This document shows positions 4,165 through 40,053 of a stretch of 64,000 nt of DNA, in pieces (position 1 is the first letter of the stretch; each line of letters opens with the position of its first letter). The stretch spans positions 211,775 through 275,774 of the forward strand of contig JAVXUO010001871.1 in assembly GCA_033065855.1 (NCBI GenBank), in the 5' to 3' direction. Source of the DNA: Escallonia rubra (taxonomy: Eukaryota > Streptophyta > Magnoliopsida > Escalloniales > Escalloniaceae). The position numbers were made by a program, and so were the translations under genes. The notes beneath the pieces were generated by a model that was not told where the DNA came from, ran no database searches, and saw only the letters and a program-made list of their open reading frames with translations.

Positions 4165-4450
4165 ATGAGTCTTAGGACAGGCCTCCGCTCGTTTTTCTCT
4201 CTAGCTCTGTTTTTCCTTGGTTAACTGTGACTGTTCCATTCCGGCCAACCCACTTCTGCTTTTTCCAATAGCCTTCATCCCCATGATTCTCAAGCTTAGC
4301 CCATCTACAGATTCATCATCCCACAATACACAAACCCTGACCTGTGCCTGTGACATTAACGTGTCTTGGCCTTAACCTCCTTTGCACCTCAGCAATCCTG
4401 TCCTCCAGTTGACTCTTCCACCAACCTTAGTAGCTCAACCTCTGTCCAAC

Positions 4451-7345
4451 ATGTTTCACCCTGATGGAAATATTAGGGAGGAGCAACCCTTAGATCTCAG
4501 ATCATGCCTGTTACCCCTCAATGAAGGCTTAGTCAGGATCGCACGCGAAGGCAAAGACCACGTACTTCTGGGGAAATTCCAGGACACTAGATTCTTCTCC
4601 CAAAGCAAGATTCAGTCCCGTGTGGATGAATGTTGGGCACTAGATGGCCCCGTCCGTGTCACCAAAGTTCCCAACGTCTTTCTCTTTGAATTTGACTCCG
4701 CCTCGGATGCTTACATTGTTCTCACGCATGGGCCATGGAATTTCTTTGGGGCACTTCTTCTCTTACAACCTTGGTATCCTCATGTGATTTACAAAACTGT
4801 TAAATTCCCAACTGCTGACTTGTGGATGCAAGTCCATAATGTACCAAATGATTGCTATCACTACTACCTTGCGGAGAAAATTGGCCATGCTGCAGGCATC
4901 TTGCTCGCGATCGACTGGTCGGAGCGACGTACCACATTCACAGATTACTTTCGCATCAAGATCCGGACCTACGTTGATGAACCTTTGCTCCCGGCTGTCT
5001 TCCTCCATCTCCTAGATGATATGGGTGTACAGCTGCTCCAATGCTCGTACGAGCGCGTCTTCACAGCATGTTACAGGTGTGGGAAAATAGGACATGAAAA
5101 TACCAATTGTCGTTCATCCATCGCTGATGTTATTGACTCCCTCACCAGGCGCACCGCCCATCTTCCTGGACCAAATCTGTATCCTACTTTCTTTGCGGAA
5201 GGCTATCCGTTATTCGCACGATCTATGAGAGCTTTGCCAAATTCAGATTGGAATCGCACCTCGCGTATTGCTATATACCGCGATCATCTCGGGATACATC
5301 TCAATCAAACTTATGACGCCTTCTCGCCCAACCCAACCCCGCCGACAAGTGACGATGATATATATACAACGGCACCCAACTCTCCAGTTTCTGTCACGGG
5401 CGAAAATGCTGGAGAAAATATGTCCCCAGAACCACATTTTGAAGGGAATGCACATCAACAAGACATGGAGTATGAAGCAGCTTACAATCAAGTTCTGAAT
5501 CAAGCACCTAATGTAGTCATCAATCCGAATAATCACTATGCAGAACTCATGGATGAAGAAATCTTTGCCGAAGATAATCCACATCCTAACGCCATTGAAA
5601 ATCATGCACTAAACATGGCCGAACTAATGGCCAATCTGGAACAAATTGAAGCAAACTTCGACGAAGAAGGTTGGAACGACGACAATATTTGGGAAGATGA
5701 ACATGAAATCATTAACGATTTCGGTGAAGATGCAGACCCAGAAGAAATTAGCGTTATTGGCAGCCACAACAGTGACATACCGCCACCAGATGATTCAGAG
5801 GATGTTGATGTTTTTTTCTCACCGGAATGTTCACCTGTAGCAATCGGGCAGGAAGATGAGATCCACGCGCCGGTAACACAGCCCATATCTGTAATCCTTT
5901 CTCTGACAAATGGGGAGTTGGTAAATTCCATGACGACATGCCAACAACTTCTGAGCCCTTCACCTACCACATCTCCAATCTTACAAGGGGGCGAAATCTC
6001 TGGACCTCCATTTCTTCTACCAAAATCTTCAGATGGGAGGCTGTCAGGAGTAGGAGCCGAAACAGGAAAATCCAATCTTGCTCAGATTTGCACACTTGAG
6101 AGCAATCCAGAGATATTTTCTCTAAATCGTGAACCTGGTCCCTTCTCTTATTCGGGCCCCCCTCTCACCTTGCCAAGCCAGCCTTCCCTCAAATGCAAGC
6201 TGGCCCAGTTGATATTGGGCCTGTCCGAATCTGGACTTAACCTTTTAGCCCACAACATTGGTGCTGAAACAAACCCTCCTTTCTCTTACCCGGGCCAAGA
6301 CAAAATCCCACAGCCCAATACCGACTCTAAAATCACCCCAGACTTGGTCGTGACCCAACAACACTCCTTCAGCCCAATCGTTGCCAGCCCAAGCTCTATT
6401 TCGAGCCTTAACAGAAGCTTAACTCTAAGCTTTCTTCACCCACCAGCAACCTTCTCTAGTAACCATCTTCTCCAGACTGCTGCCCCTCTCCATGTTCCAC
6501 AGGAACCTCTTGCTCCAGAGATACCTCAACTTCATGAACATTATCTCCTTCTAAAACTCAAGCAGGACATTACCCTCAACATACATCAAGCTGCCTTTTC
6601 TTCCCAGAATTATGCAGTGACAATGGAGTATTCAGACCGTTCTTCTGTCACCGCCAATCAAACGGTGACACTCTTCAACCCGCCATCACATCATATGGTA
6701 AACGGAGGCACTATTTTCACCGCTCCTGACTTCGACGACATTTCTGATGGAGATTTGGACACTTATGAAGTTCCTGCACTTCAAGCGTCATGCGACATTT
6801 CTACGCTTCAAACCGGGGTCAAACGGGAAGGCCTGAAGTCTAAGGATAGTCTTGAAGAACCATCTGGAAAAAAGAGGAAACTCGATGGTTTTTGCACTGC
6901 CACTATATCTCCAGGTTCATTACCGTTTTTCAGCCGGTTTACCTTGTCTTTATTTATGTTACTGCATGTCTGTACTAAAAGGCAACACAAAAGGAAACGG
7001 AAGATCTTAGAATCTTGTAGTCTCTTGCTTCCTACCGCTCAAAAAAAACCGTGCCACACTTGGCATTGGGTTCCTCCTTTAACTCCTCCTTATCAACGTG
7101 AACCCTTTATCTCGGTTGTCAAACGTAGATGCACAGATCAACTGGTTTCTAATAGCCTTTTCCACCCCCCTAATATTCGGCTTACTTTAGAAATCATAGG
7201 TTCAGTAGTGACTTCTCTTAAGGGAAAGAAACGGTCACTTGCTCAACGTGATAATCCCTTCTGGTCGATAGACCTTTCATCCTTCAATAATCGCGCTTCT
7301 AGGGTTTCAGGTGTTGCCCCTTCGCAACCCCTTCACCCTCAATGA
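4451..7345 (+). CDS. LINE ORF1: DUF4283 / zinc-knuckle RNA-binding protein
   Basis: First protein of the LINE, expected to coat the element RNA. The first ATG in the long open frame is at 4451 (the frame opens upstream without an ATG), giving 964 aa. Residues roughly 30-180 resemble the plant LINE DUF4283 region (FLFEFDSASDAY..., LWMQVHNVP). A CCHC zinc knuckle follows: C207, C210, H215, C220. The middle is acidic and low-complexity; the C-terminal part is Ser/Pro-rich with basic NLS-like runs (KKRKL, KRQHKRKRK). The length is large for this family, usually about 400-700 aa. The stop TGA overlaps the ORF2 start as ATGA. Confidence 0.9.
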   Translation: MFHPDGNIREEQPLDLRSCLLPLNEGLVRIAREGKDHVLLGKFQDTRFFSQSKIQSRVDECWALDGPVRVTKVPNVFLFEFDSASDAYIVLTHGPWNFFGALLLLQPWYPHVIYKTVKFPTADLWMQVHNVPNDCYHYYLAEKIGHAAGILLAIDWSERRTTFTDYFRIKIRTYVDEPLLPAVFLHLLDDMGVQLLQCSYERVFTACYRCGKIGHENTNCRSSIADVIDSLTRRTAHLPGPNLYPTFFAEGYPLFARSMRALPNSDWNRTSRIAIYRDHLGIHLNQTYDAFSPNPTPPTSDDDIYTTAPNSPVSVTGENAGENMSPEPHFEGNAHQQDMEYEAAYNQVLNQAPNVVINPNNHYAELMDEEIFAEDNPHPNAIENHALNMAELMANLEQIEANFDEEGWNDDNIWEDEHEIINDFGEDADPEEISVIGSHNSDIPPPDDSEDVDVFFSPECSPVAIGQEDEIHAPVTQPISVILSLTNGELVNSMTTCQQLLSPSPTTSPILQGGEISGPPFLLPKSSDGRLSGVGAETGKSNLAQICTLESNPEIFSLNREPGPFSYSGPPLTLPSQPSLKCKLAQLILGLSESGLNLLAHNIGAETNPPFSYPGQDKIPQPNTDSKITPDLVVTQQHSFSPIVASPSSISSLNRSLTLSFLHPPATFSSNHLLQTAAPLHVPQEPLAPEIPQLHEHYLLLKLKQDITLNIHQAAFSSQNYAVTMEYSDRSSVTANQTVTLFNPPSHHMVNGGTIFTAPDFDDISDGDLDTYEVPALQASCDISTLQTGVKREGLKSKDSLEEPSGKKRKLDGFCTATISPGSLPFFSRFTLSLFMLLHVCTKRQHKRKRKILESCSLLLPTAQKKPCHTWHWVPPLTPPYQREPFISVVKRRCTDQLVSNSLFHPPNIRLTLEIIGSVVTSLKGKKRSLAQRDNPFWSIDLSSFNNRASRVSGVAPSQPLHPQ

Positions 7346-10300
7346 AAGTTCTCAGCTGGAACTGTCGCGGGCTTGGCCAAGCACGCACAGTTCACGCAGC
7401 GACCAAAATGGCCCGTGAGCACAAGCCTTCATGTATTTTTCTTAACGAGACAAAAAAACCCGTCTCTTTCGTCAGTTCAAAATTTGCCAACTTAGGTTAC
7501 TCTTCAGTCGCGGGGTTGGACTCCGGCGGAGTACTTGGTTCCAAAGGTGGTCTTTGGGTAGGTTGGACGGATGATGTTTCGGGTAAGGTGTACTGCGACA
7601 AGAATCTCATCCTCGTGGAATTTATTTCAAACTATAACCTTGCTTGGGTTGCCGGCTTCATCTATGGGCATCCTAATCTTTCCAAACGGCAACATACTTG
7701 GACTCATCTCTTATCTATCCTCTCTAGTATTCAGCTTCCCCTTGCGCTTATTGGCGATTTTAACCAAGTTCTGTGCACGGCCGACAAAACCGGGCCCAAT
7801 TTCATGTCTATTCCCGGACATAATCACCTCAACAACTTTATGCAACATCTTGGGCTTATTGACGTTAAGTGGATCGGTCCAGCTTTTACCTGGACCAATA
7901 ACCATGATGGCCACTCTCGCACATATGAATGGCTAGACAGATGTTGCGCTAACTCAAAGTGGTTGTCAACCTTTACTCATGCTTTTGTCAAGAATCTAGG
8001 CATTCAGTCATCAGATCACGCTCCTCTCCTTCTCGACAGTTCACCTGTTAATGCCTTCTACCCGCGTCCTTTTCGCTTTGAAGCAATGTGGCTCAAACAT
8101 CATCAAGGAATGGAGGTGATCAGAAATTCCTGGCAACTAAGAATTGACGGCTCCCCATTGTTTAAAGTGGTTTCTTTGGGCAAAGAAATGCTTAAAGCTT
8201 TAAAGGGTTGGAACAAGCACAGGTTTAGAGGCCTAGACTCTCAGATTAAGGAATCTATCCAACGGTTATCACATTTTCAATCTCTATTACCCAATCCAGA
8301 TGTCCAAGTTTTGGAAAAATTAGAAAGAATGAAGTTGGACTGGCTTTTGGAATGTGAAGAGATATTTTGGGCACAGAAGTCTCGGATTAATTGGTTGAGG
8401 TTGGGAGACAGAAATACTAAGTTTTTTCATGCTTCGACTATGATTCGTAGAAACAAAAATAGAATCATCAGTATTCTAGACTCTGAAGGTGGCAGCCATA
8501 CATCTCATTCGACTATAACTGATTGCTTCCTAAAACACTTTGCCAAGATTTTCAGTACCCAAGCCTCCTTGTCCGGGAGTATTCCTTCATGTACCAACGA
8601 AATCTCCAGACAGCTTGACCTTTCCCAAATCTCTACTTTAGCCCGTCCCTTCTCTGCCTCGGAGATCAAAACCGCCTTATTTCAAATAAAAGGCCTTAAA
8701 GCTCCAGGACCGGATGGTATCCCTGCTATTGTATACCAAAAATGCTGGCACTTTATGGCGAGACCTATCACCGCAGCGGCACTCTCTGTGCTTCGATCTG
8801 GTTTTATGCTGCGTGAAGCTAACAGCTCCTTCATAGTTCTCATCCCCAAATGTGTCAATCCTGTCAAGCCGGATGACTTCCGACCTATCTCTTTATGCAA
8901 CACCATCTACAAGGTCATATCCAAAACCATAGCAAATAGAATCAAACCCCTCTTAACTTCCCTTATCTCTGACTACCAAAATGCGTTTGTCCAAGGACGG
9001 CATATTAGTGACAATGTGCTGATAGCTCAAGAACTAACGAACAAAATCAGGCAACACAAGAAGGGTAAATCTTATTTGGGAGCCATCAAGATGGATATGA
9101 GCAAGGCCTTTGATCGGGTAGAATGGTCATTCCTTGAAGAAGTCCTTAAGAAATTCAAATTTCCTGGCCACTTTATCCGCCTTATTATGCAATGTGTATC
9201 CACTGCCTCTTACCAGGTTCTTATTAATGGATCCCCTTCTAGAAGATTTTACCCATCGTGTGGCCTTAGGCAAGGAGACCCCCTGTCTCCGTATCTGTTC
9301 GTCTTGTGTGCTGAAGCTCTTTCATCCTCCCTCAACAATGCACAAGCTTCTGGACAAATCCCTGGGATACAAGCTGGGAGGAATAGCCCGCCTATCAATC
9401 ATCTTTTCTTCGCTGACGATATTCTTATTTTCACCAAAATGTCAACCAACAGCTGCTCTGCCCTTAAGGCAAAGCTGGACCACTATTGTGAGGCATCAGG
9501 ACAAAAGATTAATTTTTCAAATTCGTCGCTCACGATGAGTCCAAACACTGAAGCAAACAGGGCCACAAATCTGGCGCAAGCGCTGGGATTACAAATCTCA
9601 AACTTGTTTGGCAACTATCTAGGCTGCACTCTTGATATTGTCACTGACAGACACCAATTCTTTCAGAACCTTGTGGGTAAAATTCAGTCGCGTTGTGCTG
9701 GGTGGAAAGGTGTCCTCCTGAATAAAGCAGGGCGCGCTACCCTCATCTCCTCTGTGCTTTCGGCATTACTAAACTACCACTTACAGATCTGTTTATTCCC
9801 CCAAAATATCTGCAACTCCATTAACTCCCTTCTGCGTAAGTTCTGGTGGGCAGGGCCGAACCGCACCTCTTCTATACATTGGATCAACTGGAAGGCCTTA
9901 TGTGCACCCAAAACGTTGGGAGGACTCGGCTTCAAGGACATCCGGTTATCCAATCAAGCTTTGCTTGCCAAAACAAGCTGGAGAATTTTCAAAGCACCCG
10001 AGTGCCTCTTGGCAAAAGTTCTTAAAGGAAAATATTGTACCCGAACAAGTTTTAGTAATAGCCCCTCTTCAGGTAACTTCTCGTGGGGATGGCGAGGTAT
10101 TTTAGCAGGACGTCACGTCATCACATCGGGACTCAGGTGGCAGGTCGGAAATGGTTCAAGTATTTCAATTTGGAACGATGACTGGATCCCTCATAAAGAA
10201 ACCCATCCCCTTACCATCACAAACTCCTCTCATCACCCTGCCTCAGTAGTGAAAGATCTCATTCAGAACAAAATTTGGAACACCTCCTTGATAGATGCCC

Positions 10301-11391
10301 TCTTCCCAGCTGACATTGCAACCAAGATTCAAGCCATTCACCTGTCCCCCCACGAAATTGAGGATACCTTAGTATGGAGGTGTACTAATAATGGTGACTA
10401 TACCGTTGCTTCAGCGTACAATATGCTATACCAACACAGTTCTGCGACTCATATTGTCCAACCATCGAGATCCGTTTCGCATCCTGTACTTTGGAAGAAT
10501 ATTTGGTCACTACCAATCCCTTCTAAACTAATCTTCTTCATATGGCAGCTTTTATGGAATAGGCTCCCCTTATACTTCAACCTACATAAAATTCGAATCT
10601 CACCTTCTGACATGTGCCTTATCTGTCTAGATCAACCGGAAACAGTCGATCACATATTCTTCTCTTGCCAAGCGGTCAGATCCATATGGTTTGGGGGAAT
10701 GACAGGTCTTCATAGTCAAACTGTAGGATCTTCCTTCACCGAATGGCTTTCAAATTGGATTACCAACCCCGCATGTCGCCGGTCTTTATTACCCAAATCC
10801 ATTCAGATTATAGCCACCATTTGGTGCATTTGGATTCATAGAAATCATTTGATCTTCAGACAAACCCCCTTCCAGCCTATTCTTATCATCAATAATATTG
10901 CAACCTTAACCCAGAATATTGGTGCAACGCTTATTCGACGCTGTTCACCCTCTACTCCCGCCATCAATAAAACAGCGCCTCTGATGGTTGCTTCACTCTC
11001 AGCTATCACTCCCGTCATCAACCGGTGCAATTGTGTGACAGTGAAACCTCTTAGAATGGTTATCGATGTCTGTTTCAATAAAGCCACACTGAAATCGGGT
11101 TTGGGGCTTTACTGTCTTACGGAAAATGGCTTTCGATGCGGCTCAACAGCAATTTCTTTTTTAGCATCTGACGATTTGAATGCACTCTCTAAAGGCTTGC
11201 TTACATCTTCTTTATGGGCAAAGAAGCACAATCTCTTACATATTAAAATTCTCACTAACTCAAATTTTTTGCTTACTCAGCTCTCGGATATGGTGGAGAT
11301 CCCTGATACCACCGCTCCTATTATGTATGACTTTTGCTATATGCTATCAGACTTCCATCAGATCAGCTTTGACAGAGCTACGCCGTCTTAG
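7342..11391 (+). CDS. LINE ORF2: endonuclease - reverse transcriptase - zf-RVT - RNase H-like
   Basis: Replication polyprotein of the LINE, 1349 aa, starting at the ATG that overlaps the ORF1 stop. The AP-endonuclease-like domain covers about residues 1-235 (SWNCRGLG start, GDFN at 138-141, SDH at 224-226). Reverse transcriptase covers about 460-760 (MDMSKAFDRVEW from 584, RQGDPLSP, FADD at 690-693). The zf-RVT region lies near 1050-1115 (CLIC...H..FSC). The C-terminal RNase H-like region keeps the first Asp (D1242) but has Asp in place of the usual Glu (near 1278) and Asn (N1306) in place of the next Asp. The frame ends at TAG 11389-11391, yet stays open for 28 more codons to TAA near 11478, so the TAG may be a premature stop. 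Confidence 0.93.
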   Translation: MKVLSWNCRGLGQARTVHAATKMAREHKPSCIFLNETKKPVSFVSSKFANLGYSSVAGLDSGGVLGSKGGLWVGWTDDVSGKVYCDKNLILVEFISNYNLAWVAGFIYGHPNLSKRQHTWTHLLSILSSIQLPLALIGDFNQVLCTADKTGPNFMSIPGHNHLNNFMQHLGLIDVKWIGPAFTWTNNHDGHSRTYEWLDRCCANSKWLSTFTHAFVKNLGIQSSDHAPLLLDSSPVNAFYPRPFRFEAMWLKHHQGMEVIRNSWQLRIDGSPLFKVVSLGKEMLKALKGWNKHRFRGLDSQIKESIQRLSHFQSLLPNPDVQVLEKLERMKLDWLLECEEIFWAQKSRINWLRLGDRNTKFFHASTMIRRNKNRIISILDSEGGSHTSHSTITDCFLKHFAKIFSTQASLSGSIPSCTNEISRQLDLSQISTLARPFSASEIKTALFQIKGLKAPGPDGIPAIVYQKCWHFMARPITAAALSVLRSGFMLREANSSFIVLIPKCVNPVKPDDFRPISLCNTIYKVISKTIANRIKPLLTSLISDYQNAFVQGRHISDNVLIAQELTNKIRQHKKGKSYLGAIKMDMSKAFDRVEWSFLEEVLKKFKFPGHFIRLIMQCVSTASYQVLINGSPSRRFYPSCGLRQGDPLSPYLFVLCAEALSSSLNNAQASGQIPGIQAGRNSPPINHLFFADDILIFTKMSTNSCSALKAKLDHYCEASGQKINFSNSSLTMSPNTEANRATNLAQALGLQISNLFGNYLGCTLDIVTDRHQFFQNLVGKIQSRCAGWKGVLLNKAGRATLISSVLSALLNYHLQICLFPQNICNSINSLLRKFWWAGPNRTSSIHWINWKALCAPKTLGGLGFKDIRLSNQALLAKTSWRIFKAPECLLAKVLKGKYCTRTSFSNSPSSGNFSWGWRGILAGRHVITSGLRWQVGNGSSISIWNDDWIPHKETHPLTITNSSHHPASVVKDLIQNKIWNTSLIDALFPADIATKIQAIHLSPHEIEDTLVWRCTNNGDYTVASAYNMLYQHSSATHIVQPSRSVSHPVLWKNIWSLPIPSKLIFFIWQLLWNRLPLYFNLHKIRISPSDMCLICLDQPETVDHIFFSCQAVRSIWFGGMTGLHSQTVGSSFTEWLSNWITNPACRRSLLPKSIQIIATIWCIWIHRNHLIFRQTPFQPILIINNIATLTQNIGATLIRRCSPSTPAINKTAPLMVASLSAITPVINRCNCVTVKPLRMVIDVCFNKATLKSGLGLYCLTENGFRCGSTAISFLASDDLNALSKGLLTSSLWAKKHNLLHIKILTNSNFLLTQLSDMVEIPDTTAPIMYDFCYMLSDFHQISFDRATPS

Positions 11392-29358: not shown

Positions 29359-29437
<79 letters not shown>
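29359..29437. repeat. (TA)n microsatellite, left of MULE-3
   Basis: About 39 TA units abutting the element start at 29438. A matching tract is at 39102-39141 on the other side. The 9-bp TSD of the element is therefore hidden in TATATATAT. Confidence 0.95.
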
Positions 29438-29439
<2 letters not shown>

Positions 29440-29800
29440 GAGCTGATCCCTTGACAGCGCTGGCAAAATAGGAGATCTTGCCAGCGCGATCTGGCCGTCC
29501 ATCCCTTCGGGATGGACGGCCCATATCACTTTTTTTTTGCGGCGCTGTCAGTCGTCCGCTACACTGTGTAGCGGACGGATCTTTTTACCATCTTGCCCTC
29601 GCTCACCCGTCCGCTAGACTGTGTAGCGGACGACATTCTTGGGCCCACATCGTCCGACAAAAAGTAGTCCGCTACACTGTCCAGCGGATGACTATCACAA
29701 CTATGTAATTCTGACACAATTGTGACTTGTCTGACACAAGTGTGACTTGTTGTCGGCAATTCTGTCCGCTACACAGTATAGCGGACAGTATTGCCCATCC
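29438..29800. repeat. MULE-3 left TIR with palindromes
   Basis: Pairs with 38860-39101 in inverse. It holds a near-perfect hairpin at about 29491-29521 and four GTCCGCTA..TAGCGGAC-type palindromes (first at 29554-29576; then near 29609, 29670 and 29764). After the third palindrome the left and right termini diverge. Confidence 0.9.
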
Positions 29801-29945
29801 CCAAAACCTACTCAATTTTCTTTCAGCACAATTTTCTTCTACTCAATTTTCTTTCAGCACAATTTTCTTCTCCTTCGGACTCACTTCCATTTTCAGCTGC
29901 CTTCAAGCTTCGAGTAACACTTGCTTCAAGCTTCGCTCAAGCAAG

Positions 29946-30315
29946 GTAAGTTTGCTTCAAGTTTTCTTGATGTTCTAGAAATTTGTCACTGTATTCATCA
30001 ATTTGTGATTTTATACTCTAGATTTTTTGTGATGTTCTAGACATGATGTTCATCAAAAAGGTATAATTTGTTAACTTTATATTTAATTCATTATAGTTTA
30101 ATTCGATTTTTTGGCATGATGAATTCGTCTATTTATCTTACTAATTTAAATTTTTTATGTTCAATAAATTAATAATTGTTAATTTGGAGACACTTTTGAG
30201 ATTATGCATACCGTATGTTTGTCATCCTAAATTGGTCTATTCGCCAAGGTAATTTTTAGGTAATATTTTCAGTTAGAAATGCTATTTGATTGTTAAGCGT
30301 AGTCTATTTCTACAC
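29946..30315 (+). other. Likely 5' UTR intron of the MULE-3 transposase gene
   Basis: A strong donor (CAAG/GTAAGTTT at about 29946) and an acceptor (TCTATTTCTACACAG ending near 30316) flank an AT-rich stretch, immediately before the ATG at 30331. This is inferred from splice consensus only. Confidence 0.45.
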
Positions 30316-30330
30316 AGCTCTTGTTTCACA

Positions 30331-32628
30331 ATGTCTGATTTCGTGTCGAGCTCCAACGTCCCCGTAGATGCTAGTGATCCGTATCTAGGACGAACATTTG
30401 CTACGTTGGAAGAAGCTGAAGAATGTTTTCGAGCGTATTCATTGAGGGTTGGTTTTGGCATTAGAATAAAGACTTCAAGAACGAGCACCATAACGAGAAA
30501 GATATGCTCTCGCTTTTACGAGTGCCATAGGAGCAGAAACCCAGTGCAAAATGAGACACGCGTAGGCAATGATGACAGTGATGACGAAATAGGATATCCG
30601 CGTAGAAGACGGGACTGCTTTGAGCGCACAAATTGCCAGGTCAAGATGTTCGTAAGCTACAAACCCAATCAAGACCATTGGCTTATTACCAGCCTAGAAC
30701 TGGCACATAATCACCCGTTAGTAACCCCTTCTAAGGTGAGTCAGATGCATCAACACAAGAAGATGGGTAAGGTCGCAAGGAGCCTGATTCAGACAATGAG
30801 CAATGCGCGACTAGGACCTACCGACATGATTAATGTTCTTGCTGAACAGGCTGGGGGAATTCAAAATTTGACCTTTAACACGACAGACGTTCGTAACGCG
30901 GTCCGAACCCATAGACGAGCCGCGTATGACCTCAATGATGCTCAAGCCACAATGAGCCTATTGAAACGGATGCAGATGGAGGACCCGCAGTTGACCTTCG
31001 ATTATAAACTTGACGACGAGCATCGAGTTAGCACAATTTTTTGGGTCGACGGTCGTTCGAGGCTTGCTTATAAGCATTTTGGGGATGTCGTGACGTTCGA
31101 CACCACATACCGTACCAACAAGTACTCGATGCCGTTCGCCCCTTTCACGGGGGTCAATCATCATTATCACTCCATCCTGTTTGGGTCCGCCTTGTTAAGG
31201 GACGAGACCGAGAGTTCTTTTGAATGGTTGTTTAGGACGTGGCTGGAAGCAATGAACTTCAAAGCACCCAAAGTGATCATCACCGATCAAGATTTGGCAA
31301 TGAAGAAGGCTATTGCGACCGTCTTCCCAGACACTCGGCACAACTTGTGCACCTGGCACATAAGCAACAAATACCCGGAACGGCTGCATCACGTGTACTC
31401 AAAGTATCCAGACTTTAAACAGGATTTTGACAAGTGCGTCCTCAAGTCGTTAACGATTGAGGAATTCGAGGAGAGGTGGGAAAAGCTTGTTCGGGATTAC
31501 TCATTGCAAGACAACGAGTGGCTCCAGCACTTGTACGAGCGCAAAGAGCAATGGATTGGCGTTTACACGAGGAGGTATTTTTCAGCGGGCATGAAAATGA
31601 CGGGCAGGAGTGAATCCATGAATGCCACGTTCGATAGTTATGTGGGTACAGCTACCAATTTGAAGACTTTCGTTGCATCCGCACAAAAAGCGGTAGCTTC
31701 GTTGTTCGTAAAAGAAAGGGCTGCCGACTTTGCAACAACGTACAAACAAAGGAGAACATTGCTCGAGACCCCGCTGGAGTTGAACGGTGCCAAAGTCTAT
31801 ACGAAGGAGATCTTCTTGCTATACCAAGTAGAGCTGCGAAAATTCGGACGATACAGTATAAACAAGGTGGCAGAAATGTCTACGCGTGAGTACAAGGTTT
31901 ATTCGCTCGTGAATGACCTCGTCCTTGAGAAGCTGCGCAGAATGTATACGGTGAGCCACGACACATTGACGGACTCGGTGACATGTGTTTGCAAGAAGTT
32001 TGAGTTCCATGGCATCCTGTGTAGACACGTTCTGCGGTTTTTCACCCAGAAGAATATCAGGACAATCCCCGATAAATACGTCTTGCCACGGTGGACAAAA
32101 GGTGCAAACAGGTTGCACGGTACCATTTCCTTTCCGGAGCACCCGTATACTGACTTTGAAGAATCAGAGACGTTGCGGTATAATCATCTGGTGACGATGT
32201 TCACCCGTTTGTCCGTAAAGGGTGCTGCTACAATGGTCGGTTATAAACATCTCCTCGAGGTAGCTCAGCAACAAGAGCCCATCGTCGACCAGTTGGAAGC
32301 AGCTTCAGTCACCAATGCGATTGACACCGAGCCTACGACGGGGGTATCAGAAGATGACGAGCCGGAGGAGGAAGACGACAATGATATCCGTTTGTTGGAT
32401 CCAATTATATCGCAAACGAAATGCCGCAAGAGATCTATGCGGATGAAAAGCTCTATTGAAACGGCAACTCAACCTAAAAAGCTGCGAAGGTGTGCATTGT
32501 GCAACAAAATGACCGACCACGACAAGTGGAACCATTACAAGGCACTGGGGATAAGTTCAGGGGGTTTGCAAGACGGGGAAGAAGGTGACGCCAAAGATGA
32601 GGACGAACAAGCTGCAGTGGACCTTTAA
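30331..32628 (+). CDS. FAR1-type Mutator transposase, intact ORF
   Basis: 765-aa protein expected to bind MULE-3 ends and cut and rejoin DNA in the nucleus. The first ATG in frame is 30331. Residues about 17-125 form a FAR1-type DNA-binding region (GRTFATLEEAEECFRAYS, then Cys/His-containing segments, AHNHPL). The MULE DDE domain follows: D257 (FDTTYRTNKY), D319 (ITDQDLAMKKAI); the catalytic Glu is probably E396 or E403. A SWIM zinc finger has C552, C554, C564 and H566 (CVCKKFEFHGILCRH). The C-terminus has a CALCNKMTDHDKWNH motif that may bind zinc. No stops or frameshifts: the only MULE-3 gene that is fully open. Confidence 0.93.
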   Translation: MSDFVSSSNVPVDASDPYLGRTFATLEEAEECFRAYSLRVGFGIRIKTSRTSTITRKICSRFYECHRSRNPVQNETRVGNDDSDDEIGYPRRRRDCFERTNCQVKMFVSYKPNQDHWLITSLELAHNHPLVTPSKVSQMHQHKKMGKVARSLIQTMSNARLGPTDMINVLAEQAGGIQNLTFNTTDVRNAVRTHRRAAYDLNDAQATMSLLKRMQMEDPQLTFDYKLDDEHRVSTIFWVDGRSRLAYKHFGDVVTFDTTYRTNKYSMPFAPFTGVNHHYHSILFGSALLRDETESSFEWLFRTWLEAMNFKAPKVIITDQDLAMKKAIATVFPDTRHNLCTWHISNKYPERLHHVYSKYPDFKQDFDKCVLKSLTIEEFEERWEKLVRDYSLQDNEWLQHLYERKEQWIGVYTRRYFSAGMKMTGRSESMNATFDSYVGTATNLKTFVASAQKAVASLFVKERAADFATTYKQRRTLLETPLELNGAKVYTKEIFLLYQVELRKFGRYSINKVAEMSTREYKVYSLVNDLVLEKLRRMYTVSHDTLTDSVTCVCKKFEFHGILCRHVLRFFTQKNIRTIPDKYVLPRWTKGANRLHGTISFPEHPYTDFEESETLRYNHLVTMFTRLSVKGAATMVGYKHLLEVAQQQEPIVDQLEAASVTNAIDTEPTTGVSEDDEPEEEDDNDIRLLDPIISQTKCRKRSMRMKSSIETATQPKKLRRCALCNKMTDHDKWNHYKALGISSGGLQDGEEGDAKDEDEQAAVDL

Positions 32629-32764
32629 TTTTTTGTACAACTTTATGACATTTGTAATAATTTTCGGAGGGATAATTTTTCGACCGAGTACTGGAATTTT
32701 TTAAAAATGGACCTATGAGAGGCCATCGAATCAAATCTAAAGTCTTTATTTCAATTTTTTTTAA

Positions 32765-33010
32765 GCCCCGTCCGCTATACAATGTAGCAGACGTCATCGA
32801 CTTTTGGTCTTTTACGTCCGCTATATTGTATAGCGGAGAGGTGGCATCGAAGTAAAACTTTTGGTCTTTTTACGTCCGCTATACAATGTAGCGGACGTCA
32901 CAGCAGGCAAACTTTTGGTCTTCTTTAATGTCCGCTATATAATATAGCGGACGTCATCGCAGTAAAACTTTTGGTCTTCTTTTACGTCCGCTATACAATG
33001 TAGCGGATAA
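32765..33010. repeat. Five tandem palindromes, 5' array of MULE-3
   Basis: GTCCGCTA..TAGCGGAC-type palindromes near 32768, 32815, 32871, 32930 and 32984, separated by CTTTTGGTCTT(C/T)TTT spacers. They lie between the transposase stop and the B3 gene. Confidence 0.9.
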
Positions 33011-33185
33011 GTCTATATGATATATATTAATCATATCGGGCAATCGGCTGTTATCAGTCCTATCTGGAGGGCATTCTCTCTGTCTCGAACATCTAGCCCA
33101 GGCCACTACTCCATCTCCGGCGACCCACATCTCCGGTGACCCACAACTCCGGCGATAAACCGTCCCCCCCTCAACGCCGACCTCG

Positions 33186-33656
33186 ATGGCTTCTGGATCG
33201 GAGACCACCTACGATTTTATTGGCAACTTGCACCTGGCAGGCAAACACTTTTTCAAAGTCATGATGCCGGGGTTTGAGAATGAACTTGTATGCCATCCCT
33301 CTATCTCTGTATTTTCGTGTGTTAAAGGTTTGATCTTTTGGTTAAAAACTAACCTATTTTTTGTGTATTGTGTTTGTTAGGACATACTGGAAGCCTTGAC
33401 CAATCAATTTACAACAATTCATGACAGTGCAAGATTATATAGCCGCAAGGAGGCATGGTAGGTTGAAATCAAGCTGAAGCCCGGCCGACCCCAAAAAAAG
33501 CAATTCGCAGAGGGTTGGAACGTCTTCGTGCGCCAGCATGGCCTCGAACTCGGGGACTTTGTAGTGTTTGAACACCTTGGGTGGTGGGATTTTCAAGTTG
33601 TAATCTTTGATCGGAGCACTTGTGAAAAAATTTCTTTCCCCCAATGTGAACCCTAA
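33186..33656 (+). pseudogene. B3 DNA-binding domain gene (REM-like), one in-frame stop
   Basis: Small two-exon gene. Exon 1 is 33186-33287 from an ATG (GKHFFKVMMPGFENEL), intron GT..AG 33288-33380, exon 2 33381-33656 (ILEALTNQF, GWNVFVRQHGLELGDFVVFE, VVIFDRSTCEK). Splicing keeps frame and yields a nearly complete single B3 domain of plant transcription-factor type (REM subfamily-like). A TAG at 33459-33461 interrupts the domain after KEAW; the frame otherwise stays open to TAA 33654. It is either a captured host gene that has begun to decay or an element gene now defective. Confidence 0.8.
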
Positions 33657-33794
33657 TTTATTATTAATAAAATAATTTGTGTTCTTGTTGATTGTGTTTC
33701 GAAATTTTTCCTCGCTTAATTGTGCTTAATTGTGTCGTTTAAGATTCCCTCGATATATTGAGATCGTTGATTGTGAATCGTACGTTAATTGCAG

Positions 33795-34996
33795 AAACTG
33801 ATTTTACGTCCGCCATACAATGTAGCGGACGGCATAGCAGAAACTCATTTTACGTCCGCTATACAATGTAGAGGACGGCGCAGCAGAAACTCCACCCATC
33901 AACACTTAGAAAAATTTGGTCTTCATTTTACGTCCGCCATACAATGTAGCGGACGGCGCAGCAGAAACTCCACCCATCAACACTTAGAAAATTTTGGTCT
34001 TCATTTTACGTCCGCCATACAATGTAGCGGACGGCGCAGCAGAAACTCCACCCATCAACACTTAGAAAATTTTGGTCTTCATTTTATGTCCGCTATACAA
34101 TGTAGCGGACGGCATAGCAGAAACTCATTTTACGTCCGCTATACAATGTAGCGGACGGCGCAGCAGAAACTCCACCCATCAACACTTAGAAAAATTTGGT
34201 CTTCATTTTACGTCCGCCATACAATGTAGCGGACGGCGCAGCAGAAACTCCACCCATCAACACTTAGAAAAATTTGGTCTTCATTTTACGTCCGCCATAC
34301 AATGTAGCGGACGGCGCAGCAGAAACTCCACCCATCAACACTTAGAAAAATTTGGTCTTCATTTTATGTCCGCTATACAATGTAGCGGACGGCATAGCAG
34401 AAACTCATTTTACGTCCGCTATGCAATGTAGCGGACGGCGCAGCAGAAACTCCACCCATCAACACTTAGAAAAATTTGGTCTTCATTTTACGTCCGCCAT
34501 ACAATGTAGCGGACGGCGCAGCAGAAACTCTACCCATCAACACTTAGAAAAATTTGGTCTTCATTTTATGTCCGCTATACAATGTAGCGGACGGCATAGC
34601 AGAAACTCATTTTACGTCCGCTATACAATGTAGCGGACGGCGCAGCAGAAACTCCACCCATCAACACTTAGAAAAATTTGGTCTTCATTTTACGTCCGCC
34701 ATACAATGTAGCGGACGGCGCAGCAGAAACTCCACCCATCAACACTTAGAAAAATTTGGTCTTCATTTTATGTCCGCTATACAATGTAGCGGACGGCATA
34801 GCAGAAACTCATTTTACGTCCGCTATACAATGTAGCGGACGGCGCAGCAGAAACTCCACCCATCAACACTTAGAAAAATTTGGTCTTCATTTTACGTCCG
34901 CCATACAATGTAGCGGACGGCACAGCAGAAACTCCACCCATCAACACTTAGAAAAATTCTCTACCTACATTTGTCCGCTACATTGTATAGCGGACG
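33795..34996. repeat. Higher-order palindrome array of MULE-3
   Basis: Two unit types, A = 46 bp and B = 78 bp, each opening with a GTCCGC(T/C)A..TAGCGGAC palindrome. B carries an added CTCCACCCATCAACACTTAG spacer block. From 33805 the order is A-B-B-B, A-B-B-B, A-B-B, A-B-B, A-B-B, giving superperiods of 280 and 202 bp. A last palindrome in the opposite orientation is at about 34973-34995. In B units the left arm is GTCCGCCA, so the palindrome has one mismatch. Units are almost identical, indicating recent amplification. The long open frames here are a repeat artefact. Confidence 0.95.
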
Positions 34997-35192
34997 GCAC
35001 AGCAGAAAGACTAAACTTCACTACTTAGAAATTTTTTGCACCATTTCGTTTTCCACATTTCAATCATTCCCAATGAGGCCAAAAAACCAACAACTTTCAT
35101 CAATCAATCAGTAATCGACAACAGAAATCAACACAAATCAAATCACACCAATGGCGTACGGTTTATGTAAAAAATACTGTTATGATACAATT
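34997..35192. other. MULE-3 spacer between array and Ulp1 gene
   Basis: AT-rich non-coding sequence; likely the 3' end region of the minus-strand PMD-Ulp1 gene. No poly(A) signal is certain. Confidence 0.4.
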
Positions 35193-35985
35193 TCAACTGG
35201 GGTCTGCATGTTGGGGCGGATTCTCGTCATTAGCCGGATTTTTTATAAACCTAACCGCTCTAGGCCGGCCTTTCATAATTTGCCAAGCTATTCTATATCT
35301 ATAGGCTTCAACTTCTGCTTGGCTCCAGACGGCCGCCTTGAGGCTCTCAGAGCGACAAATGAAATCCATGTACATGCAAAGGAAGACGCCGCAGTCCGAA
35401 GTGTTACGTTGCTTGGGCCTTCTCTTCTTCAATCGCCTATCGAGATTTGGCCGCGCCGGTACGGGGACATCACGGACACGATTGACCATTGCACAAAAAA
35501 TATTCTGCGAGAAACAGAAAATGGCGTAAGACACGAGTTAAAATTTATGGCAAGATAGAATCAGAGCATTATACAGCGATCGTAATATTACCAATGAGTC
35601 CAACTGGGCTCTGTACATCTGCAGCACAGGCATCTGATGAGTATCGTCGTGGAGACTGTCGATCACCGATACGACTTTACTTGTTGGGGAGTAGCAAACC
35701 AAGTACCAGTGGCTTTGCCCTAGAAATGGGATTAGAAACACATTGGCAACACTTGCGCTCACCGGACTATCCCTATTAAGATACGCTCGTAGGTTAACGG
35801 ACGGTCTCCACTGGGCCAACTTTTTCTTCCCCCTATTTTCGACCCACTCCTGCCATTCAGACACTAGGATGCCATGAAAAAAGGCATCGAACAAAAAAAC
35901 GGCCGGATAGGTCGGCTGCTGCCGACACCTTTCCTTCAGAATCTCCACGTAGGTGGAGACGACACCGTTGTCTAACCAACTCCCC
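35193..35985 (-). pseudogene. Ulp1-like cysteine protease (C48) part of MULE-3 gene
   Basis: SUMO-protease-like domain on the minus strand. It begins with a typical entry (GSWLDNGVVSTYVEILKER, about 35985-35930). The catalytic His lies in QSHWYLV (near 35710), the Asp in VIDSL (near 35660), and the oxyanion Gln and catalytic Cys in PKQRNTSDCGVFLC (near 35395). An intron 35591-35505 (GTAATA..CGCAG) joins the two halves in frame. The triad is complete. There is no own ATG before the domain; it directly follows a TGA (36011-36009) at the end of the PMD part, which suggests one fused gene interrupted by a stop. Ulp1-like genes are known passengers of plant MULEs. Confidence 0.82.
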
Positions 35986-36008
35986 GGAGCCAGGGAGGCC
36001 AGTTCTCC

Positions 36009-38150
36009 TCACGAGCAACTGTAATCCATGCCCTCCGGATGATCCACACTATACAACGCTTGGTCATGCGGGTAGCCGCTAAAATGACGCTCTCTGATTA
36101 TCTGGCATTTCTGCGGCTTTAGGGGCTTCAACGGATGCCCTTTGCGATATTGCCCTCGGGGGTCGACCGGGGGGTATTGCACTCCTTCGGGGGGGTCGAC
36201 GGGGGGATATTGCACTCCTTCGGGGGGGTCGACGGGGGGATATTGCACTCCTTCAGGGGGGTCAACGGGGGGGTATTGCCTGCCTTCGGCAATAGATGGT
36301 CCTGCCCACGGGACAATGGGCAGACTGATGTTTCCGAAACCCCAGTCTTGCGTGACTTGACTCTGAGATAGGGGTTGGGGTTCCGAATCCAATAGTAAAG
36401 AGAAGGAGGGCGCACTGTAATCTTCCCACGGCGCTTGAGCCTGGCCCATGGTGCTTGGCGGTCCCCAATCACCACCCATCTCCGGTACATAGGGAAAACC
36501 ATATCCCTGGCTCACTCCCGAAGTCTGTCCCGAGGGATCGGTGCATCCCTCGGGAACAAACGGCCGCTGCCACCCCGGATAACCCATTCCCGGGTTTGGC
36601 TGTCCCGATGCTTGCCGTAAAAAATTCCCACAGCCATTAGCCAAAGCTTCAGCCTGTTGGCAAAGCTCCTCGCCCATGGCATCCACCAAATCCTTCCGCT
36701 CGCTCAACTTCTGGAAGAAGGCGAACGAGGCATTAACCTACATCCAGAAAGATAATAAATAAGTAACTTCGTACACACTTAGAATGATCAAGTTCAATTA
36801 GAAGCACTGGTTGGGCAACTTACCAGATTGTATGCCATGTGCTCATCGATCTGACCCCTAGGGTGGTACTTCTCCCCGCGTTCAAACCTTACTGGAGCTA
36901 CTCTCCTCCGGGTGATGCGGTAGTACCACTCATTGTACTGTTCGATGCTGATGACGGGGTCAGGCTCCGACACAATGGCCGCCAGCGTGTCCTGCCAGGA
37001 ATTCCAGACCTCAATTTCACGCGCGCACAACTCGTGCGCATTCGCCCTGCCAAACAGTCCGACACCCGGTGGGTTCCTGTTAAGCCTCATATCTGGCGCG
37101 CCGACTGGCAACCCCTGCAGGCAGTCAAAATGGCGCATAGCGCGATCTGGCAGCTGCCACTCTGCGACCTCGAAGTGGATCAGGGGTGTGCGTTGCAACC
37201 CGGAGAGCGTGAAGACGAACGACTCTCCCACCCGTCGTGCCAAATGTTTGTACGGTGCCCATCGCATCTGGCCAGGAGATAACGAGTCGAGCTCCCCCCG
37301 ATAGTATGAAATGTTGTGATGGGGATCGTCTCTCCTCTCGTAGTGGGTTTCCTTCCGGCTGTACTCCCAGGCGCACAACCGAGGCCACACATTATCTGTT
37401 CCGTCCCTACGCCTGGGTGCGCCGGTAGCAAGGTGTTCATAAGACCACACCTGAGAGCAAAGACATTAAAAAAAGTATCGTCAACATTTATTGTCCATTC
37501 AACAAAAAAAAAACAACAAAGAGCACGTAATGAAGAATTGTATGATATACCTGCAATAGCGAGAGACATGCACATATCGCTTTGGAGTCTGGCCTCGTTG
37601 CCTTGTGCAATGCTCGGTACAGGTATGCAAGAGTTGCTGCACCCCAGGCATAATCCCCAACCTCAGCCAGGTTACGCAAAAACGGTAAATATTTGACGCT
37701 GACCGTGTTCTTCGACGTCGTTGGGAATAATATTGCCCCCATCACCCACCAGAGGAAGGCTTGTGTGTACAGCACAAGGTCATGGCCCGAATAGTTTTCT
37801 GGCAAAACCCCTTAGGTATCTACCAACCACTTCAACTTGATACCACTACTGCTAAATCCATCCTGGGGTATCGAAGTAAAGAAGTTCCTAGCGGTCCTCT
37901 TATTCGTTGCTTCGGACGGATGAGCTATTACCGGCCGCCCCGTCACCGGTAACCCTAAGATGAACCCTACATCTTCTAGGGTAATTGTCATCTCTCCGAG
38001 AGGGAAGTGAAACGTATTCATTTCACTTCTCCACCTTTCAACAAGGGCACCTATTAAGTGCCGGTCAAGTTGTTGAAAGATCTGCCCATGCGTGAAAATC
38101 CCAAACCCAATCCCACGCAGTAATCTTTTCTGGGTTCTGTTCAATTTCTA
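36009..38150 (-). pseudogene. Plant mobile domain (PMD) part of MULE-3 gene
   Basis: Minus strand, PMD of the type found in MAIN proteins and transposons. Exon 38144-37551 has RHLIGALVERW, MTITLEDVGFILGLPVTGRP, YAWGAATLAYLYRAL; exon 37450-about 36824 has VWSYEHLATGAP, DPVISIEQYNEWYYRIT; exon about 36737-36009. Introns at 37550-37451 and 36823-36738 have GT/AG ends and keep phase. The last exon is Pro/Gly-rich and holds four copies of an 11-residue repeat (QYPPVDPPEGV). In-frame TAA at 37814-37812 and TGA at 36011-36009, plus a TAG just upstream of the first exon, show decay while the domain itself is well kept. Confidence 0.82.
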
Positions 38151-38860
38151 GGCGTTGAAATTATCGCTTACTTCTACCGTGTTGACAAGTGCTCTTTCCT
38201 ACGAATTAATAAATATTATTTAAGCAAAATAAACGATATACAACGTTCGCAACTGAAATACGTAAGCAAAATAAACGATATAAACGATAAAATAAGTATC
38301 TTACTCCACCATCCCATATGAGCGTACTGATATGGTTTGCTTGGTCGTATAATACGGACGAATCTTCTGGTCCAGGGTTGAAATCCATTTTTTGCAACTG
38401 AAATAATGGAAAGAGGGCAAGGTTGGAAGCGTAAACATTCTCAAACATACAACGCTAGCATGTGATCAGATAATACGCAATACACATATATAATATATAT
38501 GTATATACATTGACAAACGCTAGCATAGTGCCGATCTACTTGCTAACGCCGCAAGATGAACTCTAGATTATGAACAAAGAAAGGATTAGTTTGTGAACTT
38601 ACGTGATTGATGAGACGATTAAAAGATTTCTTGCAAAGAAATTGCGCCGATCTACTTGCCAACGCCGCTGGTTTGATCGTGAGAAGAAGGAATAGTTTGA
38701 TTGTGAGAAGAAGGAATGAATAGAAGTTTAGAAGGTTTCGAATACTTGCCAACGTCCGCAACACTGTATTGCGGACGCTGGGATAACGACAAAGTAACAG
38801 TCGTGCATCGACTGATGTGACAACTGTCAGGGGGAAGTGGGTGGTTTGACGGAAACAGTC
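38151..38860. other. MULE-3 region upstream of the PMD gene
   Basis: AT-rich; probably holds the 5' part of the minus-strand gene. Weak GT/AG candidates near 38205 and 38305 are compatible with small 5' exons (a frame reading FNPGPEDSSVLYDQANHIS.. at about 38385-38320). One palindrome-like GTCCGCAACACTGTATTGCGGAC variant lies near 38753. No product can be assigned. Confidence 0.35.
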
Positions 38861-39098
38861 GTCCGCTAGACAGTGTAGCGGACTACTTTTTGTTGGCCCA
38901 AGAATGTCGTCCGCTACACAGTCTAGCGGACAGGTGAGCGAGGGCAAGATGGTAAAAAGGTCCGTCCGCTACACTATGTAGCGGACGACTGACAGCGTCG
39001 CAAAAAAAAGTGATCTGGGCCGTCCATCCCGAAGGGATGGACGGCCAGATCGCGCTGGCAAGATCTCCTATTTTGCCAGCGCTGTCAAGGGATCAGCT

Positions 39099-39101
<3 letters not shown>
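38860..39101. repeat. MULE-3 right TIR with palindromes
   Basis: Inverse of the left terminus, with three GTCCGCTA..TAGCGGAC-type palindromes (near 38861, 38910 and 38964) and the same terminal hairpin. It ends ..GATCAGCTCCC at 39101. Confidence 0.9.

Positions 39102-39141
<40 letters not shown>
39102..39141. repeat. (TA)n microsatellite, right of MULE-3
   Basis: About 20 TA units directly after the element end. The copia RT resumes immediately after (MTDLDHLRYFLGMQV). Confidence 0.95.
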
Positions 39142-39143
<2 letters not shown>

Positions 39144-40053
39144 GACTGATCTCGACCATCTGCGGTACTTTCTCGGCATGCAAGTAAAGCAAAAACCTGG
39201 CCAAATTTGCTTTCTCAAGGAAAAAGTGTGGATAAATTGTTAAAGAAATTTAATATGTCTAATTGCAAGCCTTTAGTTACTCCAATTGCACCAAGTGATC
39301 GGCTTTCAAAGAATGATGGAGAAAGAAAAATGAAGATGAGTCTATCTATCCAAAACTTATTAGATCATTGATTTGTCTTGCAAACACAAGGCTGAATATT
39401 GCCCTTTCAGTCGGTGTTGTTTTCAGATTCATGAACGAGCCAAGTATTGTACATTTTGCTGCAGCTAAAAAGATACTAGGGAATGTCAAAAGTACTCATA
39501 ACTTTGGCATCACACACATCTTGTGTGAGACGGAGAAGGACAACGGCATGATTGGATAAGTACAAGTGGGTATGTTTTTTGCATTGGACCCAACGTTATT
39601 TCATTGTCCTTGAAGAACCAGAAAAAGTCACATTATCATGTGCCAAAGCTAAATACATCTCAGCCACCAATGTAGCTGGTGAAGCAGATGGCTTAGGAGA
39701 ATACCGGAGGACATCAAACACGGTCGAGAATTTTCCACAACCATTTATTTTAACAAAATGTTAGCTATATCCTTGGCTAGGTATCCAATATTTTGTAGCC
39801 AGACAAAGCACATTGAATTAGGCCATCATTTCATCCGGGAGCTTGTGGAGAAAGGAAAAATTAAGCTACATTCTTGCAAGACCCTAGATAACCTCGCTGA
39901 CATTTTGATGAAGCCGATTCCGACATAGAAGTTCATGCAGTTTAGAGGCCAGCTTGGAGGTTATGATTTTTCAAGATTAAGTGGGAGTGTTAGAAAATTA
40001 ATCTAGAAAAAATTCAAGATAAAATCTCTCTCAAATATTTATCTCTAGAATTA
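39142..40053 (+). pseudogene. Copia RT C-terminus, RNase H and start of 3' LTR
   Basis: It starts with the copia RT block DLDHLRYFLGMQVKQKPGQ. Then come decayed RNase H pieces (LICLANTRLNIA-type, a TSGYVFxL-like region near 39560, KAKYIS near 39640, and a ..QTKHIEL..HHFIRELV block near 39800). The polypurine-like AAGTGGGAGTG and the LTR start TGTTAGAAAATTAATC are near 39987. Many stops and frameshifts. A Helitron interrupts the LTR at 40053. Confidence 0.82.

Follow-up and report, generated by a model that had tools for sequence, protein, structure and literature searches.

Does a plant transposon mark its own DNA with a recurring sequence and encode the protein that reads it? This question is raised by a locus in Escallonia rubra (assembly GCA_033065855.1, contig JAVXUO010001871.1), where a stretch of 64,000 nucleotides, hereafter referred to as the window, contains at 29438-39101 a 9.66-kb Mutator-like element (MULE) with terminal inverted repeats (TIRs), embedded in a (TA)n tract. 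The element carries a transposase gene, a gene with a DNA-binding B3 domain, a gene in which PMD and Ulp1 domains are joined, and an array-forming 23-bp palindrome. It belongs to a plant transposon family that has spread recently, and we regard it as probable that it represents an autonomous-type, high-copy, (TA)n-targeting MULE that addresses its own DNA with this one palindrome.

Palindrome sites

The palindrome has the motif GTCCGCTA-N7-TAGCGGAC and spans 23 bp. When up to two mismatches were allowed, 31 sites were found, all of them within the element and none in the rest of the window; counted on both strands, there were 62 matches, versus 0.03 expected, which bears out the repeated palindrome noted in a preliminary description made from the letters of the window. 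The sites are arranged as follows, in window coordinates and without strand.

29554-29786: four palindromes, located 116, 171, 229, and 326 bp inside the 5' end
32770-33008: five palindromes in the interval between the transposase and B3 genes, about 46-58 bp apart
33808-34995: tandem array of 18 palindromes, with spacings of 46, 77, and 78 bp
38754-38986: four palindromes, located 115, 170, 218, and 325 bp inside the 3' end and upstream of the PMD-Ulp1 gene

Relatives were sought in the plant's own genome (566 Mb), with the best 40 candidates being scored for each query, so that the family sizes given here are lower bounds. Twenty sister copies were read at 5-10 kb each and two more over the B3 region; the 20 were the best matches to the PMD-Ulp1 gene and are, hence, a biased sample, in which some copies may be allelic pairs. 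In the 21 copies scanned, the genes for the transposase, B3, and PMD-Ulp1 are free of palindromes, as far as these genes lay in the stretch read. The 17 copies in which the 5' TIR was read have four palindromes upstream of the transposase (six in L022), the transposase-B3 interval holds four or five wherever both of these genes were read (19 copies), and the internal array before Ulp1 comprises 8-18 in all copies scanned, with spacings that vary from copy to copy. Past the TIR of the window copy, it is mainly the palindromes that still match between the two element ends, with 40 of 46 bases being identical inside palindromes versus 67 of 141 outside. Exact sites number 11,428 genome-wide, versus 0 for a reversed-pattern control, and related termini that are about 75-85% alike also carry the palindrome.

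In the end palindrome at 38754-38776, both arms have changed together (GTCCGCAA/TTGCGGAC), with the symmetry being kept. Locus L041 (1-3601; G000 C9) contains groups of four to five palindromes with TIR-like matches, which are apparently short elements; tblastn in L041 found none of the transposase, B3, and PMD-Ulp1 proteins, and the coding sequence between the palindrome groups resembles, by eye, a non-specific phospholipase C gene.

A noncoding-only motif with mirrored end sites and fluctuating internal arrays fits sites read by an element-encoded protein, for a dimer of which the palindromes would provide the binding sites. The retention of these sites in short relatives without the genes points to the transposase for the end sites, and its FAR1 domain would most likely grip the four sites at each end for transposition. 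According to the available parts of the papers cited here and below, VANC proteins bind noncoding tandem motifs in VANDAL elements and remove silencing (PMC5735166, PMC10398659); by analogy with VANDAL/VANC, the internal arrays may point to regulation, in which they would recruit the same or another element protein, B3 being the next candidate, and keep element promoters active. The PMD-Ulp1 protein may be an accessory chromatin or SUMO factor, and the whole would then be a VANC-like self-recognition system built from other domains.

The palindromes may instead be transposase binding and hairpin sites only, with the internal ones being by-products of recombination with the ends. The four palindromes per end and the retention of such sites in short relatives are consistent with this account, and long self-complementary TIRs occur in such MULEs (PMC4486113). 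However, the four or five sites between the transposase and B3 in 19 copies and the 8-18 before Ulp1 have flanks unlike those of the ends, and we consider this account to be possible, yet on balance doubtful.

Element ends and insertion site

The boundaries of the element were defined by the following features.

29361-29437, no strand: (TA)n tract, left insertion flank
29438-29649, plus strand: 5' TIR, starting GGGAGCTGATCC
38891-39101, minus strand: 3' TIR
39102-39141, no strand: (TA)n tract, right insertion flank

Between the two termini, one stretch of 100 nt aligns at 99% identity and another of 119 nt at 95%; therefore, the inverted termini described earlier are real, at a length of about 212 bp rather than about 250 bp. 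A query with 29438-29700 gave 103 matches in the genome from the best 40 of 2418 candidates. Most sisters likewise lie in (TA)n: of 31 distinct ends, a few of which may belong to allelic or duplicated pairs, 25 adjoin an unbroken TA run of at least 10 nt, against a background of 69 of 63,940 window positions. Since its flanks are (TA)n, a target duplication is unreadable in the window copy; in C17, a sister located outside (TA)n, ATTAAACAA is present on both sides and was judged by eye to be a 9-bp duplication. The TIRs found here and this duplication, which is within the 8-11 bp of MULEs, assign the element to this group, and insertion in TA microsatellites is the habit of the MuTAnT and SaTar MULEs. 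At two sister loci (L002 1447 and L031 8962), related elements lie side by side in one (TA)n tract.

Transposase gene

The transposase is encoded by a single open reading frame (ORF).

30331-32628, plus strand: transposase of 765 aa with FAR1, MULE, and SWIM domains (Pfam), open in the window copy

The intact FAR1-type transposase of the preliminary description was confirmed, with 765 codons without a stop and Pfam matches to MULE (PF10551, 3.2e-32), which places the element in the MULE superfamily, as well as to FAR1 (6.4e-13) and SWIM (5.3e-05). The reading frame is open in 16 of 20 aligned copies, including that of the window. The gene is present in 19 of the 20 sisters read at 5-10 kb, and the remaining copy, L029, is cut by a contig end. 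Shared variants among the sisters (10 nonsynonymous, 5 synonymous) are not telling. Since the B3 gene of the window copy has one in-frame stop and its PMD-Ulp1 gene three, this copy could at most supply transposase. Pack-MULEs capture fragments without a transposase of their own, and these gene fragments are private to copies; with the transposase in 19 of 20 sisters and B3 in 21 of 22, a Pack-MULE was ruled out.

B3 gene

The B3 gene consists of two exons.

33186-33287, plus strand: B3 exon 1, 34 codons
33381-33658, plus strand: B3 exon 2, 91 codons and the stop codon, with an in-frame TAG at 33459-33461

The element does contain a B3-domain gene, as had been proposed, with the qualification that the window copy is interrupted by one nonsense codon, the TAG at 33459-33461 being unique to the window among the 22 B3-bearing copies read. 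The Pfam scan of ten window ORFs did not include the B3 exons, and the score refers to the spliced protein of the sister copies, which matches PF02362 at 1.9e-09, above the curated cut-off. The closest solved B3 domain is that of VRN1, at E 0.029 only, and this weak sequence match alone was not taken to make the protein VRN1-like.

The B3 gene is present in 21 of the 22 sisters read, with an open frame in 20 of these 21, or, counting the window, in 20 of the 22 copies that carry it. Besides the window itself, 39 loci were scored for the B3 cassette, and these match it at 97-99% across 745 or more of its 771 bases (best 40 of 1302 candidates, the window included). A capture private to this copy, in which case other copies would lack B3, is thus refuted. 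The only sister read without B3 is L028, the transposase tail of which differs from those of the B3-bearing L039 and L040 at 4/243 and 3/283 positions, respectively, whereas the tails of L028, L039, and L040 differ from that of the window at 18/283, 14/243, and 15/283. Since L028 groups with L039 and L040, a loss of B3 is the simpler reading. In L028, the interval from the transposase to Ulp1 holds 14 palindromes but lacks B3, which also suggests that the array may be a site of B3 gain or loss by recombination. Within the family, three nonsynonymous and no synonymous shared variants were found in B3, which is not telling.

A second B3 family was detected in the palindrome cluster of C1 (L042), which holds a B3 gene between palindromes with an intron at the same place; the L042 copy is broken. 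In L044, a member of this second family, B3 is open and shows 65% protein identity to the window family. The second cassette was scored at 40 loci, including L042, which match at 89-100% across 571 or more of its 701 bases (best 40 of 1367 candidates), and its B3 matches PF02362 at 3.6e-12, so that the domain lies above the curated cut-off in both families. In the one second-family copy read further upstream of B3, the 921 bp covered held no transposase, and no pair of the second TIR family and the second B3 family within 10 kb was seen by eye among the best 40 scored of each.

A comparison of L030 with L044 gave a nonsynonymous divergence (dN) of 0.241, a synonymous divergence (dS) of 0.332, and a dN/dS of 0.72 (bootstrap interval 0.45-1.23). 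Of 122 residues, 79 were identical, where neutral shuffles average about 68.5 (P about 0.001), and the frame was free of stops, although 2.9-3.6 were expected (P 0.02-0.05). Differences were nearly evenly distributed over the codon positions (25, 26, and 29), the exons differed at 80 of 366 positions and the intron less, at 9.9% of 91, and divergence was fastest in residues 35-70. The residue and stop counts provide moderate evidence that B3 has been kept as a protein across the two families, moderate only because the neutral shuffles ignore the clustering of changes; the smaller divergence of the intron speaks against it.

In its strong form, the idea of the preliminary description is that B3 is the specific palindrome reader and the anti-silencing factor. 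In the window family, B3 lies inside palindrome arrays, as it does in the single copy of the second family that was read over a longer stretch, and both families have an open B3 (L030 and L044) with residues conserved beyond neutral shuffles. On the other hand, dN/dS is 0.72 (0.45-1.23), codon positions are nearly even, and the intron differs less than the exons; L028 has no B3 and keeps 4 + 14 palindromes, the short elements of L041 keep theirs with no B3 found, and the match to VRN1 is weak. We consider this specific role for B3 to be rather unlikely.

PMD-Ulp1 gene

The PMD and Ulp1 parts had been described separately; both domains are present on the minus strand, where they form a single five-exon gene that encodes 938 aa in intact sisters.

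38305-38388, minus strand: exon 1
37551-38198, minus strand: exon 2 (PMD), with stops of the window copy at 38150-38148 and 37814-37812
36824-37450, minus strand: exon 3 (PMD)
35592-36737, minus strand: exon 4, a linker with 11-aa peptide repeats followed by the Ulp1 His and Asp, with a stop of the window copy at 36011-36009
35193-35504, minus strand: exon 5 (Ulp1 Cys) and the stop codon

The four introns are GT-AG in 21 of 21 aligned copies, made up of 20 sisters and the window copy. Three in-frame nonsense codons interrupt the gene of the window copy; therefore, the complete Ulp1 His-Asp-Cys reported from it (SHW, VID, and DCG in exons 4 and 5, assigned by eye) is present in the letters, but stands behind three stops. 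The frame is open in 4 of 21 copies, the window included, and broken in 17. In the intact gene of L030 (a 921-aa model), Pfam found PMD at 7.8e-73, C48 at 1e-11, and DUF7745 below threshold, so that the C48 domain score comes from this sister. Scoring of the gene in the genome (best 40 of 1516 candidates) gave the window locus plus 39 more that match at 96-99%, two of which are split into two pieces. All three genes are open in L019, L030, L034, and L035; the PMD-side ends of the latter three lie outside the stretches read, and L019 and L027 are without the first 528 bp of the element.

The linker contains 33-bp coding repeats (36158-36289) that encode 11-aa units and recall the peptide repeats in the variable parts of VANC, a protein that carries DUF1985/DUF287 (PMC5735166).

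Variation among copies

Mean pairwise differences by part were 0.000-0.006 in B3, 0.005-0.009 in the transposase, and 0.015-0.028 in the linker and Ulp1; PMD-Ulp1 exons had a mean of 0.0172, versus 0.0074 in the transposase, and PMD-Ulp1 introns 0.0107. Counts for PMD-Ulp1 were obtained with a 921-codon model, which is short of 17 exon 2 codons relative to the 938-aa model. The near-duplicates L023/L024 and L019/L027, the flanks of which are alike, were counted separately among the variants of the three genes, while L024 and L027 were dropped from the shared-variant test of PMD-Ulp1. In this test, nine synonymous and seven nonsynonymous shared variants were found in the PMD part (P(S) 0.024, P(N) 0.05), and this part alone leans to purifying selection, as judged from sequence variants. 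B3 is present in 21 of 22 sisters, but selection on it is only weakly supported, with too few changes within the family.

Exons differ more than introns in PMD-Ulp1 between copies (0.0172 vs 0.0107) and in B3 between families (22% vs 10%), perhaps because methylated, CG-rich exons mutate faster than introns.

Among the 465 variants counted in the three genes, 245 were C-to-T or G-to-A, a dominance as in methylated, decaying elements. This dominance, as expected of methylated DNA, speaks for an alternative in which a host protein, such as an endogenous FAR1/FRS or B3 factor, would read the motif and mark the element for silencing or host expression. However, a motif that attracts silencing should be lost rather than multiplied, and the palindrome has been kept in mirrored positions, which makes a host reader very unlikely in our assessment.

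B3 and PMD-Ulp1 may also be captured host pieces that hitch-hiked in one young burst, with functionless arrays that grow by slippage alone. The scored sisters are 96-99% alike over PMD-Ulp1, so that the presence of the gene in all copies needs no selection; PMD-Ulp1 is broken in 17 of 21 copies, and neutrality accounts for the single-copy changes in each of the three genes. Within the family, B3 shows about the same low variation in exon and intron, and between the two families it is the exons that differ more. Against this account stand two diverged B3 families in the same motif context, a B3 reading frame that has been kept open across 22% nucleotide divergence, four introns that are GT-AG in 21 of 21 PMD-Ulp1 copies, and mirrored end palindromes, and we regard it as improbable.

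Comparison with known systems

The insertion habit and the passenger kinds (Ulp1 and PMD) are already known for MULEs. The element resembles MuTAnT of Medicago in its long TIRs starting in G-runs, (TA)n insertion, 9-bp duplications outside perfect (TA)n, and foldback termini (PMC4486113), a likeness of habit and description rather than of compared transposase sequences. The 4.9-kb AutoMuTAnT has only one ORF, which encodes the transposase, and the available part of that report mentions no B3, PMD, Ulp1, or palindrome array (PMC4486113). The SaTar MULEs of guayule and rice share microsatellite targeting and elements side by side in one (TA)n; they are mainly short and non-autonomous, with some autonomous or defective autonomous MULEs, and the accessible text names no accessory genes (PMC5907723).

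The comparison with VANDAL VANC made in the preliminary description is apt in layout: the motif is noncoding only and stands in tandem arrays, the repeat number of which differs between sister copies (PMC5735166), and the accessory gene is more variable than the transposase, here 0.0172 versus 0.0074. It does not extend to the proteins and ends, since VANDALs are non-TIR MULEs (review PMC13317346), whereas 212-bp TIRs, (TA)n targeting, B3, and PMD-Ulp1 are found here. One window exon alone matched DUF1985 at E 0.053, below the cut-off. With TIRs present and no Pfam DUF1985 in the intact PMD-Ulp1, the element is not a VANDAL. The KIU (Kaonashi) elements are multi-gene MULEs with Ulp1 that recognize motifs in their own noncoding DNA and become hypomethylated (review PMC13317346), which makes PMD-Ulp1 a candidate counterpart; the Ulp1 domain in a multi-gene MULE is shared with them, whereas the present element has Ulp1 fused to PMD, as well as TIRs and a B3 gene. 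PMD proteins have a role in gene silencing in Arabidopsis, and their capture by MULEs for anti-silencing has been the subject of speculation (PMC5418596). In the PMD-C proteins encoded by MULEs of grasses and Amborella, the captured PMD is fused to the transposase, whereas here it is joined to Ulp1 and encoded apart from the transposase, on the opposite strand (PMC5418596).

What the present family contributes is a B3 gene, DNA-binding by its domain, among the stable components of a MULE, family-wide in the copies read. Among the papers listed from the literature searched, which did not reach most subscription papers, there was no description of a B3 gene as a family-wide MULE component, nor of a 23-bp palindrome as a shared address; the B3 domain is named once each in two of them, which deal with a peanut wilt map and with orchid Gypsy elements.

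Discussion

Several results weigh against the view that the element addresses its own DNA through the palindrome in the manner outlined above. The palindrome half-sites in sister TIRs are nearly as variable as the rest (0.030 vs 0.042, with 0.057 in the 7-bp cores). Single-copy variants fit a neutral null with the observed mutation spectrum in the transposase, B3, and PMD-Ulp1, so that selection does not follow from the open B3 frames of the sisters alone. For PMD-Ulp1, shared variants likewise showed no departure from the neutral null when counted over the whole gene, in the linker, or in the Ulp1 part. Pfam did not report DUF1985 in the intact PMD-Ulp1 of L030 (921-aa model). In addition, VANDAL motifs are 8-9 bp long, not palindromic, and family-specific, whereas the 23-bp palindrome is common to families. 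Considering the confinement of the palindrome to noncoding DNA and its mirrored end sites, we nevertheless favor self-addressing by the element; we infer both the identity of the palindrome-reading protein and any anti-silencing.

In its most far-reaching form, this proposal would hold that a TIR-MULE lineage evolved, independently of VANDAL/VANC, a self-addressed system of anti-silencing and self-regulation, in which B3 would read the multiplied palindrome, PMD-Ulp1 would strip SUMO-dependent silencing, and short relatives would share the service through their end palindromes. We regard this combination as unlikely. If B3 or the transposase reads the palindrome, this would represent a second, structurally different self-tagging of noncoding DNA by plant DNA transposons, and the co-evolution of reader and address would be directly testable because one genome contains at least 40 loci of each of two B3 cassettes.

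Neighboring sequence in the window

A Copia-like reverse transcriptase remnant, judged from the translated letters only, lies at 39150-39930 and adjoins the right (TA)n flank of the element. A LINE-like element occupies 4376-11391, with an ORF for DUF4283 and, after it, a second ORF that combines reverse transcriptase and zf-RVT domains, as well as a sub-threshold endonuclease match.

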